From: Sphingomonas sp. 32-66-10
GTDB lineage: Bacteria > Pseudomonadota > Alphaproteobacteria > Sphingomonadales > Sphingomonadaceae
DNA: 41,585 bases
Reading direction: 5' to 3'
NCBI GenBank assembly: GCA_002280565.1
Contig: NCEF01000012.1
Coordinates: 1-41,585 of the forward strand
Numbering within the stretch: position 1 is the stretch's first letter; every line of letters begins with the position of its first letter. The notes beneath the pieces were generated by a model that was not told the origin of the DNA, did not search any database, and saw only the letters and a program-made list of their open reading frames with translations. Below, piece after piece: positions 15,766-20,823 of the stretch. The position numbers and the translations under genes were made by a program.

Positions 15766-15801
15766 CTGGACAGCCAAGTCGCTGGAACGTATGAAGAACA
15801 T

Positions 15802-17049
15802 ATGGCCCAGCTCGACCTGCGCGAAAAGCTTCAAATCCTCGCCGACGCGGCGAAATATGACGCGTCCTGCGCGTCATCCGGCACATCGAAACGCAAGTCG
15901 TCGGGCGGCAAGGGGCTGGGTTCGACCGAGGGGATGGGCATCTGCCACGCCTATGCGCCCGATGGCCGCTGCATCAGCCTGCTCAAGATCCTGCTGACCA
16001 ACAGCTGCATCTTCGACTGCCATTATTGTATCAACCGCAAAAGCTCGAACGTCCGCCGCGCGCGCTTCACCGCGCAGGAGGTCGTCCGCCTCACCCTCGA
16101 TTTCTATCGCCGCAATTATATCGAGGGGCTGTTCCTCTCCTCGGGCATCATCCGCTCGCCCGATTACACGATGGAGCAGATCGTCGAGGTCGCGCGCAGC
16201 CTGCGCGAGGATCACGACTTTCGCGGCTACATCCATTTGAAGACGATCCCCGACGCCGATCCTGGCCTGATCCATCAGGCCGGGCTGCACGCCGACCGCC
16301 TGTCGATCAATGTCGAACTGCCCACCGTCGCCGGCCTGACCCGCCTCGCCCCCGAAAAATCCGCGCCCCGGATCGAGGGGGCGATGCGCGACCTGAAACG
16401 CGATATCGAGGATACGGGCGACGCGCGCAAACGCTATCGCTCCGCCCCCAAATTCGCCCCCGCCGGCCAGTCCACCCAGATGATCGTCGGCGCCGACGCC
16501 GCGACCGACCGCGACATCGTCGGTCGTGCGGCGGGGCTCTATGGCCGCTTCGGCCTGCGCCGCGTCTATTATTCCGCCTTCAGCCCGATCCCGGACGCGA
16601 GCGCGGTGCTCCCGCTCCAGCGCCCGCCGCTGATGCGCGAACATCGCCTCTACCAGTCCGACTGGCTCATGCGCTTCTACGACTATCGCCCGGACGAGGT
16701 CGCCGACGCCGCCGATCCCGCGACCGGCATGATGCCGCTCGACATCGACCCCAAGCTCGCCTGGGCATTGAAGCACCGCGCCAGCTTCCCGGTCGACGTC
16801 AACACCGCCCCGCGTCAGGCGCTGCTGCGCGTCCCCGGCCTGGGCGTAAAGGCGGTCGACCGCATCCTGATCTCGCGCCGCTGGCGACGCCTGACGCTGG
16901 CCGATGTCGCGCGGCTCACCGTGTCGGTGAAGAAGCTCAAACCCTTCCTGATCACCAGCGACTGGCGCCCCACCCTCCTCGCCGATCGCGCCGACCTGCG
17001 TCCGCTCGTCGCCCCGCCGGCCAAGCAGATGGAGCTGTTCGCGGCATGA
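15802..17049 (+). CDS. Radical SAM protein of the UDG-linked putative DNA modification/repair family
   Basis: The 415-residue protein carries a radical SAM cluster Cys69-x3-Cys73-x2-Cys76 (SCIFDCHYCINRKSSN) and motifs such as GLFLSSGI and the region YIHLKTIPDA. Near the C-terminus it has a helix-hairpin-helix DNA-binding motif (about 341-356, LLRVPGLGVKAVDRIL). This arrangement matches the family usually named putative DNA modification/repair radical SAM protein, whose genes co-occur with a DUF4130/uracil-DNA glycosylase-like gene; that partner lies at 17734. The reaction is not known. The radical SAM fold and DNA-binding tail suggest radical chemistry on DNA bases or a crosslink. The N-terminal segment is Lys/Gly-rich (TSKRKSSGGKGLG). 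The ATG at 15802 lies 36 bases after the previous stop. Confidence 0.92.
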   Translation: MAQLDLREKLQILADAAKYDASCASSGTSKRKSSGGKGLGSTEGMGICHAYAPDGRCISLLKILLTNSCIFDCHYCINRKSSNVRRARFTAQEVVRLTLDFYRRNYIEGLFLSSGIIRSPDYTMEQIVEVARSLREDHDFRGYIHLKTIPDADPGLIHQAGLHADRLSINVELPTVAGLTRLAPEKSAPRIEGAMRDLKRDIEDTGDARKRYRSAPKFAPAGQSTQMIVGADAATDRDIVGRAAGLYGRFGLRRVYYSAFSPIPDASAVLPLQRPPLMREHRLYQSDWLMRFYDYRPDEVADAADPATGMMPLDIDPKLAWALKHRASFPVDVNTAPRQALLRVPGLGVKAVDRILISRRWRRLTLADVARLTVSVKKLKPFLITSDWRPTLLADRADLRPLVAPPAKQMELFAA

Positions 17050-17111
17050 GAATGAGTCGCGGGTGAAACAAGCCGTCGCTCGGGCGGTTGAGCGCGCAAA
17101 GGAGACTTTGC

Positions 17112-17594
17112 ATGGCCGACGAACGCATTTTCGAGGATCTGATCCAGGACCATAACCGCCAGCGCGATCTGCTCGAGCGCATCGGCGAGACGAGCGGCGA
17201 CAGCGACGATCGCCGCACGCTGTTCGAGGAACTGCGCGTCGAGCTTCAGGCACACGCCGCGGCGGAGGAAGAATCGCTCTACGCGACGATGCTCGCCAAC
17301 CCCGATCTGCGCGACGATGCCCGCCATTCGGTGTCGGAGCACAAGGAGGTCGACGACATGCTCGGCGAACTGGTCGAGATGGACATGGCCGCATCCGGCT
17401 GGCTGACCAAGTTCAAGACGATGCGCGACCGCTACCTCCACCATATCGACGAGGAGGAGGAAGAGATGTTCCCCGCCGCGTCGAAGGATCTGGACGAAGC
17501 GACCAAGGCCAAGCTCGCGGCGATCTTCGAGAAGCGCAAGCCAAAGGAACTGGAACGCGCCGAAGACGAAATGCCCGGCGACGCGCGGGAGTGA
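17112..17594 (+). CDS. Hemerythrin-like (HHE) domain protein
   Basis: The 160-residue, very acidic protein has a four-helix hemerythrin pattern. Candidate iron ligands are His14 (QDHNRQRD), His48 with Glu52 (QAHAAAEEESLY), His77 (SEHKEVDDML) and the HHIDEEEEE stretch (His110/His111 with a Glu four residues on). Such proteins bind a di-iron centre and sense or store oxygen, nitric oxide or iron, or help repair iron-sulfur clusters. The ATG at 17112 has AAAGGAG about seven bases upstream, which beats an in-frame start at 17088. It sits between the radical SAM gene and its UdgX partner, both probable iron-sulfur proteins, so a role in protecting or loading their clusters is attractive but inferred. 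A hairpin follows the stop. Confidence 0.88.
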   Translation: MADERIFEDLIQDHNRQRDLLERIGETSGDSDDRRTLFEELRVELQAHAAAEEESLYATMLANPDLRDDARHSVSEHKEVDDMLGELVEMDMAASGWLTKFKTMRDRYLHHIDEEEEEMFPAASKDLDEATKAKLAAIFEKRKPKELERAEDEMPGDARE

Positions 17595-17626
17595 CCCCGC
17601 TCCCGCCCCTGCCGCGCCACGGTAAT

Positions 17627-17653
17627 GTCGCCCCGGACAGGGTCCGGGGCGAC
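17627..17653. terminator. Perfect 12-bp hairpin after the hemerythrin gene
   Basis: GTCGCCCCGGAC-agg-GTCCGGGGCGAC is a perfect 12-bp stem with a three-base loop, 32 bases after the stop. No T-run follows. It may be a terminator, an RNA stabiliser or a dispersed CCGGAC..GTCCGG-type repeat. If it ends transcription, the UdgX gene needs its own promoter in 17654-17730. Confidence 0.55.
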
Positions 17654-17733
17654 GCACGCGCGTCCGCGTACAACCGGGCCGCGTCCGCGTCAGCCCAATG
17701 GATCGAATCGCTCCCCGCGCGTTAAGGGGACAC

Positions 17734-19113
17734 ATGCGGGTCGTTGCACTAGCCTCACAGGATGATTTCGACGGCTGGCGCGACGCCGCCCGCGCGCTCG
17801 CCGCAGCGCGGGTCGATCCGTCGGAGGTGGTGTGGCAAGTCGGCGACCAGCCCGCCGACCTGTTCGGCGACGAAGCCGTCCTTCCCGCTACGGCCCCCGA
17901 ACTGCGCGTCTCGCGCCGCTTCGTCAGCCTCGCGCGCGAGGCGATCCTGCACAGCGACCCCGAACGCTTTGCGCTGGTCTACACGCTGCTGACCCGCGTG
18001 ATCGCGCGACCGGGCAGCATCGAGGACAAGGCCGACCCGCTGCTCCGCCGCCTCGATGACATGGCGAAATCGGTCCGCCGCGACATTCACAAGATGCGCG
18101 CGTTTTTGCGGTTCCGCGAGGTGGCGGACGATGCCGGCCCCCGCTTCATCGCGTGGTTCGAAGCCGACCATCACATCGTCCGCGCCAATGCCCGTTTCTT
18201 CGTCGACCGCTTCCACACGATGCGCTGGTCGATTCTGACGCCCGACATCTCGCTCCACTGGGACGGCAAGACGCTGTCCGAAGGCCCCGGCGCGAGCAAG
18301 GCCGACGCGCCGCAGGACGATCCGGTCGAGGCGGTGTGGAAGACCTATTACGCGTCGATCTTCAACCCTGCCCGGCTCAAGACCGGCGCCATGCTCAAGG
18401 AAATGCCGCGCAAGTACTGGAAAAACATGCCCGAAACCGCGTTGGTGGCAGAGCTGATCAAAGGCGCGCGCGCCCGCGAGCTGGCAATGGTGGAGACGGC
18501 ACGGTTGACCGGACCCGGCGGCAACGCGACCAAGGCGTGGGCCGCGCTGCGCGACGAAGCAATGGCCTGCACCCGCTGCCAACTCTACAAACCCGCGACG
18601 CAAACCGTGTTCGGCGAAGGCCCGGTCGATGCTCCCCTCATGCTGATCGGCGAACAGCCCGGCGATCAGGAGGATCTAGCCGGCCGGCCCTTCGTGGGCC
18701 CTGCGGGGCAGCTCCTCGACGATGCGCTGGCCCAGGCCGGGATCGACCGCGCCGCCACCTATCTCACCAATGCGGTCAAGCATTTCAAATTCGAACCGCG
18801 CGGCAAACGCCGCATCCATTCAACGCCCGATGCGGGTGAGATTAGCGCCTGCCGCTGGTGGATCGAACAGGAATTGCTGATCGTCCGACCCAAAGTGGTG
18901 ATCGCCCTCGGCGCCACCGCCGCCCGCGCGCTGCTGAGTCGGGCGGTCACCATCTCGCGCGAACGCGGCCGCGCCATCCCGCTCGACTCGGGCGCGGAGG
19001 CGTGGATCACCGTCCACCCCAGCTATCTGCTGCGCCTGCCCGACCCGGAGGCCAAGGCGGCACAGCACGCCGCCTTCATCGCCGACCTGCGCGCTGCAGC
19101 TGCGCGGCTTTAA
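17734..19113 (+). CDS. udgX: DUF4130 - UdgX family uracil-DNA binding fusion protein
   Basis: The 459-residue protein joins two parts. The N-terminal DUF4130 domain (about 75-225: LVYTLLTRV.., MRAFLRFREV.., ADHHIVRANARFFVDRF, MRWSILTPD) is the partner domain known from genomes with the radical SAM gene above. The C-terminal part (about 270-459) is a uracil-DNA glycosylase-like domain of UdgX type: GEQPGDQEDLAGRPF (306-320), FVGPAGQLLDD, NAVKHFKFE, the UdgX-specific insert KRRIHSTP with His362, and HPSYLLR. In mycobacterial UdgX the equivalent His bonds covalently to the sugar of excised uracil, so the protein marks uracil in DNA. Only three cysteines occur in the whole chain (Cys279, Cys282, Cys373); the usual fourth iron-sulfur position is Ala391. 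AAGGGGA precedes the ATG at 17734. Its stop shares TTAA with the convergent gene's stop. Confidence 0.93.
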   Translation: MRVVALASQDDFDGWRDAARALAAARVDPSEVVWQVGDQPADLFGDEAVLPATAPELRVSRRFVSLAREAILHSDPERFALVYTLLTRVIARPGSIEDKADPLLRRLDDMAKSVRRDIHKMRAFLRFREVADDAGPRFIAWFEADHHIVRANARFFVDRFHTMRWSILTPDISLHWDGKTLSEGPGASKADAPQDDPVEAVWKTYYASIFNPARLKTGAMLKEMPRKYWKNMPETALVAELIKGARARELAMVETARLTGPGGNATKAWAALRDEAMACTRCQLYKPATQTVFGEGPVDAPLMLIGEQPGDQEDLAGRPFVGPAGQLLDDALAQAGIDRAATYLTNAVKHFKFEPRGKRRIHSTPDAGEISACRWWIEQELLIVRPKVVIALGATAARALLSRAVTISRERGRAIPLDSGAEAWITVHPSYLLRLPDPEAKAAQHAAFIADLRAAAARL

Positions 19114-20732: not shown

Positions 20733-20823
20733 TCCTCCTTTCAATCGGCTGAATCAGGCGTTCCCGCATCGTTCAGTCAGCGGGTCCTACTTTCTGCTCA
20801 TGCCCAACAACCGGGCCGAGTCG

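Follow-up and report, generated by a model that had tools for sequence, protein, structure and literature searches.

The region analysed lies in a 41,585-nucleotide stretch of Sphingomonas sp. 32-66-10 (assembly GCA_002280565.1, contig NCEF01000012.1), referred to here as the window. Between positions 15,802 and 19,113 three genes on the same strand encode a radical SAM protein, a hemerythrin-domain protein and a fusion of DUF4130 with a UdgX domain. Open reading frames (ORFs) and family matches agree with this layout, which had been proposed in an initial annotation made from the sequence alone. A candidate LexA (SOS) box directly upstream of the first gene had been missed. Coordinates are collected in Table 1.

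Table 1. Features of the radical SAM-DUF4130 locus in the window.
Feature	Coordinates	Strand	Description
Radical SAM gene	15802..17049	+	415-aa ORF; TIGR03916 / rSAM_link_UDG with C-terminal helix-hairpin-helix
Cys69-x3-Cys73-x2-Cys76 cluster motif	16006..16029	+	inside radical SAM gene
Hemerythrin-domain gene (PF01814)	17112..17594	+	160-aa ORF; probable lineage-restricted insertion
DUF4130-UdgX fusion gene	17734..19113	+	459 aa; longer alternative start at 17698 gives 471 aa
DUF4130 / TIGR03915 domain	17755..18438	+	family-model matches
UdgX domain (TIGR03914)	18445..19095	+	GEQPG 18649-18663, KRRIH 18805-18819, HPSYLLR
LexA (SOS) box, candidate	15785..15799	-	GTTCTTCATACGTTC; GTTC-N7-GTTC direct repeat, 2 bases before radical SAM start codon
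Perfect 8-bp inverted repeat, no T run	17631..17649		between hemerythrin gene and DUF4130-UdgX gene

The radical SAM protein matched TIGR03916 with 563.1 bits (cut-off 343.5). The DUF4130 part of the fusion matched PF13566 with 130 bits (gathering score 27) and TIGR03915 with 213.6 bits (cut-off 112.25), and the UdgX part matched TIGR03914 with 318 bits, above its cut-off. With all three models over cut-off and the genes together, the locus resembles the rSAM_link_UDG operon (TIGR03916-TIGR03915-TIGR03914; COG4277-COG1573), in which we take COG4277 to be the TIGR03916 radical SAM family. It differs in that the window copy has a hemerythrin gene in the gap, and in that UdgX is optional by the counts that follow.

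Occurrence was counted at family cut-offs in a phylum sample of 398 genomes of Pseudomonadota. The radical SAM gene was present in 84 genomes, TIGR03915 in 87 and both in 84, so that the radical SAM gene occurred alone in none and DUF4130 alone in three (G341, G357 and G421). Of the 78 genomes with UdgX over cut-off, 63 also have the radical SAM gene and 15 do not. UdgX over cut-off was missing in 21 of the 84 radical SAM genomes; in one of these, G514, DUF4130 is followed by a degenerate domain that resembles UdgX and scores below cut-off. Among the named control genomes, Bacteroides ihuae matched TIGR03916 and TIGR03915 and gave no match to TIGR03914, and Caulobacter vibrioides matched all three models.

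Loci were then read in 110 genomes. These comprised every genome of the order sample that was over cut-off (43), a further 41 alphaproteobacteria, and 26 of the 29 other Pseudomonadota. Within the stretch read, DUF4130 was found downstream on the same strand in 108 of the 110, at a distance of 300 bases or less in 99. The nine genomes with larger gaps are seven of those with a hemerythrin gene, G135 and G519. In the remaining two of the 110, G044 and G047, DUF4130 lies ∼3 kb downstream, same strand. The radical SAM and DUF4130 match coordinates were also adjacent in three genomes outside the 110 (G375, G420 and G520). The stretch read showed a DUF4130-UdgX fusion in 39/43 genomes of the order; G000 and G002 are cut by the stretch, and G044 and G047 are fused by match coordinates. 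The fusion was present in 38/41 other alphaproteobacteria (G335 is truncated where its contig ends, and in G243 and G324 DUF4130 stands without UdgX) and in 10/26 other Pseudomonadota.

A second set was made up of the best 80 matches to one Psychrobacter-like sequence, and by title comprises 70 Bacteroidota and 10 others; it is not a random sample. DUF4130 follows the radical SAM gene in 78 of these 80 loci; locus L136 ends with its contig and no DUF4130 was found in L169. No UdgX match was obtained in the stretch of any of the 80. When 48 of the 78 DUF4130 proteins and the window domain were compared with Pfam, 49/49 matched DUF4130 and none matched UDG. The UDG label COG1573 may have been passed to these second-set partners from fused relatives. 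By gene content, the predicted operon has the radical SAM gene and DUF4130 as its core, with UdgX as an optional domain fused C-terminally to the latter.

The UdgX domain of the window has motif A, GEQPG, at residues 306-310 and the R-loop, KRRIH, at 358-362 in the 459-aa numbering, which places the loop histidine at His362 as first annotated. Motif B reads HPSYLLR and fits HPS(S/A)(L/V)(L/V)R at 6 of 7 positions, with Tyr rather than Ser or Ala at position 4. The best PDB matches were chains 6ajo and 6iod, the former with 182 bits over residues 282-468 of the 471-aa reading. PDB 6ajo is presumably the UdgX of Mycobacterium smegmatis, with which the window domain shares GEQPG, KRRIH and HPS..LLR; unlike that protein, it is joined to DUF4130 as the C-terminal half of the fusion, belongs to an operon with a predicted SOS box, and has the Tyr in motif B. 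Residues were counted in 104 fused ORFs, one of 105 being too short and some loci coming from the same genome. GEQPG was present in 102/104. The loop pattern was present in 94/104, and with a by-eye reading of the other ten the loop His was found in 102/104, the exceptions being L021 (Asn) and L097 (degenerate). The covalent chemistry thus seems, on residue conservation, to be kept where the UdgX domain is kept. The UdgX motifs used here, and the covalent bonding of UdgX to DNA, are taken from the available part of PMC10359453.

In the initial annotation UdgX traps uracil covalently, the radical SAM protein and DUF4130 resolve the UdgX-DNA crosslink or abasic lesion, and the hemerythrin protein protects the clusters. 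The published covalent bonding (PMC10359453, available part), the retained residues and the presence of the DUF4130-UdgX fusion at most of the alphaproteobacterial loci read favour such a scheme. As the core reaction it does not fit the distribution of the parts: 21 of the 84 radical SAM genomes are without UdgX over cut-off, none of the 80 second-set loci gave a UdgX match, 15 of the 78 UdgX genomes are without the radical SAM gene over cut-off, and 101 of the 110 genomes have no same-strand hemerythrin gene by the module. We consider it improbable as a general account; the trapping mechanism could hold in UdgX-bearing lineages only.

Some UdgX copies depart from the usual arrangement. In L027 (genome G030) the UdgX part of the fusion was read as two overlapping pieces in different ORFs and looks broken. 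G454 has three UdgX domains over cut-off, on contigs C2, C5 and C6; two adjoin DUF4130 matches, of which that on C5 is under the DUF4130 cut-off, and one stands alone. In G216, which has no radical SAM gene over cut-off, a full UdgX match on contig C1 (5486827-5487696) adjoins a DUF4130 remnant (49 bits, one internal TGA). UdgX may outlive loss of the radical SAM and DUF4130 genes.

LexA boxes were searched from -200 to +30 of the radical SAM start, with control windows from the same loci, in which the motif rates were 0.16-0.65%. The direct repeat GTTC-N7-GTTC was present in 40/43 genomes of the order (control 6/926), 30 of which share the offset seen in the window, and in 41/41 other alphaproteobacteria (control 2/1067). 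In the other Pseudomonadota it was found in 0/26, and CTGT-N8-ACAG, which we take to be the E. coli-type LexA box, in 18/26 (control 2/774). The Bacteroidota loci had CTAA-N5-TTAG in 22/70 (control 21/3702), at least two copies of GGA-N5-TCC in 16/70 (control 6/3702) and either motif in 38/70; four of the 70 showed GTTC-N7-GTTC. Most of the Pseudomonadota relatives examined, and roughly half the Bacteroidota loci, have a predicted LexA box of their own lineage type at the operon head. The motifs of Alphaproteobacteria and Bacteroidetes were used as given in the available part of PMC8565304, where SOS control of the COG1573-COG4277 operon is predicted for Bacteroidetes and earlier reports for Verrucomicrobia and Alphaproteobacteria are cited. 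SOS control of this operon type is known in outline, and the box counts per lineage extend that knowledge.

The two-base gap between box and ATG (15785-15804) leaves no room for a usual ribosome-binding site, and leaderless translation of the radical SAM gene is possible. No further GTTC-N7-GTTC for the downstream gene was found in the stretch read in 8 of 10 genomes with an insert. The stretches of G044 and G047 searched for a second box end before the fusion gene; in G047 a further repeat lies 2150 bases past the radical SAM stop. Elsewhere in the window the repeat occurs on the + strand at 20760-20774, 25 bases before an ORF at 20800; three more copies lie at 604, 3679 and 27504.

Sequences from 61 of the 80 loci in the second set, which is mainly Bacteroidota, were aligned with the window's radical SAM protein (62 sequences in all). 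The window protein has exactly six Cys residues (23, 48, 57, 69, 73 and 76), all invariant in 62/62; these include the annotated Cys69-x3-Cys73-x2-Cys76 motif. The other three, Cys23, Cys48 and Cys57, are not part of CX3CX2C and would be compatible with an auxiliary cluster. Against Pfam PF04055 the window protein scored 27.3 bits (gathering score 29.5), and 62/62 aligned members matched at E 0.01. The helix-hairpin-helix tail of the initial annotation is weak in the window protein taken alone (HHH_3, E 0.005, under the gathering score) and stands as a family feature, HHH_3 being matched by 60/62 members at E 0.01. The weak sequence neighbours are of the ThiH, HydE, LipS1 and MqnE types, and include cofactor-making radical SAM enzymes and ribonucleotide-reductase activators. 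In PHROGs the only match for the radical SAM protein was a weak one (E 0.00012). Relatives with 50% and 75% identity are encoded on two contigs from a viral collection, L213 and L214, whose viral origin was not checked.

Spore photoproduct lyase (SplB) is likewise a radical SAM enzyme with a CX3CX2C motif, and direct reversal of UV dimers by an SplB-type protein would be in keeping with the motif, the DNA-binding tail and the SOS boxes. In the available parts of two papers, PMC8565304 states an SOS association of splB and PMC3765255 (2013) calls the associated radical SAM proteins SplB-like. The window protein differs from the lyase in its three extra invariant Cys and its helix-hairpin-helix tail. 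No lyase was listed among its weak neighbours, though TIGR00620 lay outside that library and the presence of a lyase model in any library was not established. Profile matching to the PDB up to E 10 gave no lyase, and the 50 listed fold matches include none. We consider dimer reversal of this type unlikely. We give a similarly low standing to modification of DNA bases or of the nucleotide pool, in place of lesion repair, by an enzyme induced on damage: the NCBIfam name (DNA modification/repair) and the cofactor-making and reductase-activating neighbours would suit it, but damaged DNA is the likelier substrate for a protein with a helix-hairpin-helix and SOS boxes, PADLOC gave zero matches to its defence-system models, and only the two viral-contig loci encode a relative.

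The invariant residues of DUF4130 include Arg, His and aromatics. PHROGs gave zero matches for this domain. Of the 50 PDB fold matches listed, 29 carry DHH-type names (best E 0.028, TM-scores ∼0.2-0.3); the names, PPase II, RecJ, PAP phosphatase, NrnA and archaeal RecJ, are presumably all of the DHH superfamily. Some of the same names were returned below threshold from the viral library by the model of window positions 17734-18474 (best E 0.008). On a probability scale of 0-100, profile comparison gave 0.04 against RecJ; the control comparisons, with the radical SAM alignment and the UdgX alignment, gave 0.2 and 0.3. Against 18 ORFs labelled NrnA-like by us (DHHA1 matches with a DxDG motif) it gave 0.36, or 0.11 under another column rule, and the RecJ positive control gave 76; under the first rule the best-aligned stretch was the expected motif. 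Assignment of DUF4130 as a DHH-type phosphoesterase was rejected, as profile comparison gave no support and the fold resemblance is sub-threshold; it is kept as a lead only.

The hemerythrin protein matched PF01814 with 65 bits (gathering score 25.3). It shares the domain with the PA2171 ribosome-binding persister family, and differs from it in scoring 60.1 bits against a cut-off of 190. A same-strand hemerythrin gene stands by the module in 9/43 genomes of the order (G000, G005, G044, G047, G094, G103, G132, G140 and G144), in 0/41 other alphaproteobacteria and in 0/26 other Pseudomonadota; in G047 the match is split by an in-frame stop. On the radical SAM tree the hemerythrin label needs 4 changes (bootstrap 3-4) and is clustered, not stable: G039 and G125 lie within the hemerythrin clade, yet have no hemerythrin gene. 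Other ORFs occupy the same gap in some relatives, a beta-helix-type ORF in G044 and G047 and a cytochrome-like ORF also in G044 (both named by reading only), and a different ORF in G135. The window's own genome has three other hemerythrin-domain genes. Hemerythrin was accordingly rejected as a general functional part of the module. The proposal that it guards the clusters is not borne out by a gene found in 9 of 110 genomes and in 0 of the 67 outside the order, and the alternative offered with it, an unrelated insertion, fits better. The gene is best read as a lineage insertion, probably on the SOS transcript; within the hemerythrin-bearing clade it may have a helper role.

In L055 and L057, from the window's genus, the gap holds extra ORFs beside the hemerythrin gene, which is last in one and first in the other. 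In G480 (L096) a hemerythrin gene lies on the opposite strand beyond UdgX. With up to two mismatches allowed, an inverted repeat such as that downstream of the hemerythrin gene was also matched in 8 of 100 shuffles of the window, and a promoter and terminator scan gave nothing beyond chance.

The operon is read here as an SOS-induced system for processing DNA lesions, to which as a whole we assign a probability of about 0.6. The repair assignment of the initial annotation is supported because lineage-type SOS boxes, the helix-hairpin-helix tail and the tight radical SAM-DUF4130 linkage occur together. On DNA damage, LexA would be released from the operon. The radical SAM protein, with its helix-hairpin-helix tail as DNA anchor, could then use a 5'-deoxyadenosyl radical to reverse or alter a base or sugar lesion. 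DUF4130, in which Arg, His and aromatic positions are invariant, would recognise the lesion or present the substrate. Where the fusion is present, UdgX would excise uracil and bond to the abasic sugar, and so tether the complex or shield the site until repair is complete.

Several observations weigh against this reading. The GTTC-N7-GTTC motif alone is weak, with five copies in the window against 0.79 expected and 63 in the window's own genome against 34 of a reversed control pattern; because the repeat is common in both, one match means little, and conservation carries the argument. That conservation is incomplete: the box is missing in three of the 43 genomes of the order (G002, G039 and G114), CTGT-N8-ACAG is missing in 8/26 other Pseudomonadota (three have a looser CTG-N10-CAG), neither Bacteroidota motif was detected by these tests in 32/70 loci, and the three specific motifs were all absent from the ten second-set loci outside the Bacteroidota. 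An SOS box is in any case no proof of repair; the operon could instead serve modification, tolerance or a damage checkpoint. Confidence in the radical SAM model is only moderate (mean pLDDT 71.8, cluster loops <50), and its fold search returned a broad range of radical SAM enzymes (HydE, MiaB, viperin, biotin and lipoyl synthase). The DUF4130 model (mean pLDDT 78.1) had no fold match at E 0.001 in the PDB or viral library. Neither predicted structure names a substrate. No phenotype, substrate, activity or experimental test of the pair was found in the literature searched, which comprised the available parts of PMC8565304, PMC3765255, PMC10776899, PMC1839093, PMC10359453, PMC9380542 and PMC8307549.

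A more specific form of the lesion-processing reading is put forward tentatively, as possible rather than likely. The pair may be a second radical DNA repair system, distinct from photoproduct lyase, in which an N-terminal auxiliary cluster (the invariant Cys23, Cys48 and Cys57) would be used on an SOS-inducing lesion. DUF4130 would possibly be a former DHH phosphoesterase without its metal site, and UdgX would have been acquired in Proteobacteria as a covalent tether at uracil-derived sites.

The link between these genes had been described as recognised in family names. The family models do match, and the association is in print beyond the names: the available part of PMC3765255 gives DUF4130 with SplB-like radical SAM and UDG association in a figure legend, and it is treated also in PMC8565304 (available part). 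A LexA-bound radical SAM gene in Streptomyces, whose family identity was not checked, is listed in the available part of PMC9380542.

All parts of the locus match named families. What is new is the division into core and optional parts in numbers, the change of LexA box from lineage to lineage, the rejection of hemerythrin as a general component and the misfit of the UDG label to the second-set partner genes scanned. A radical enzyme accompanied by one partner in every sampled genome that has it, with LexA motifs that differ by lineage, is a strong candidate for a DNA repair reaction undescribed in the literature searched.

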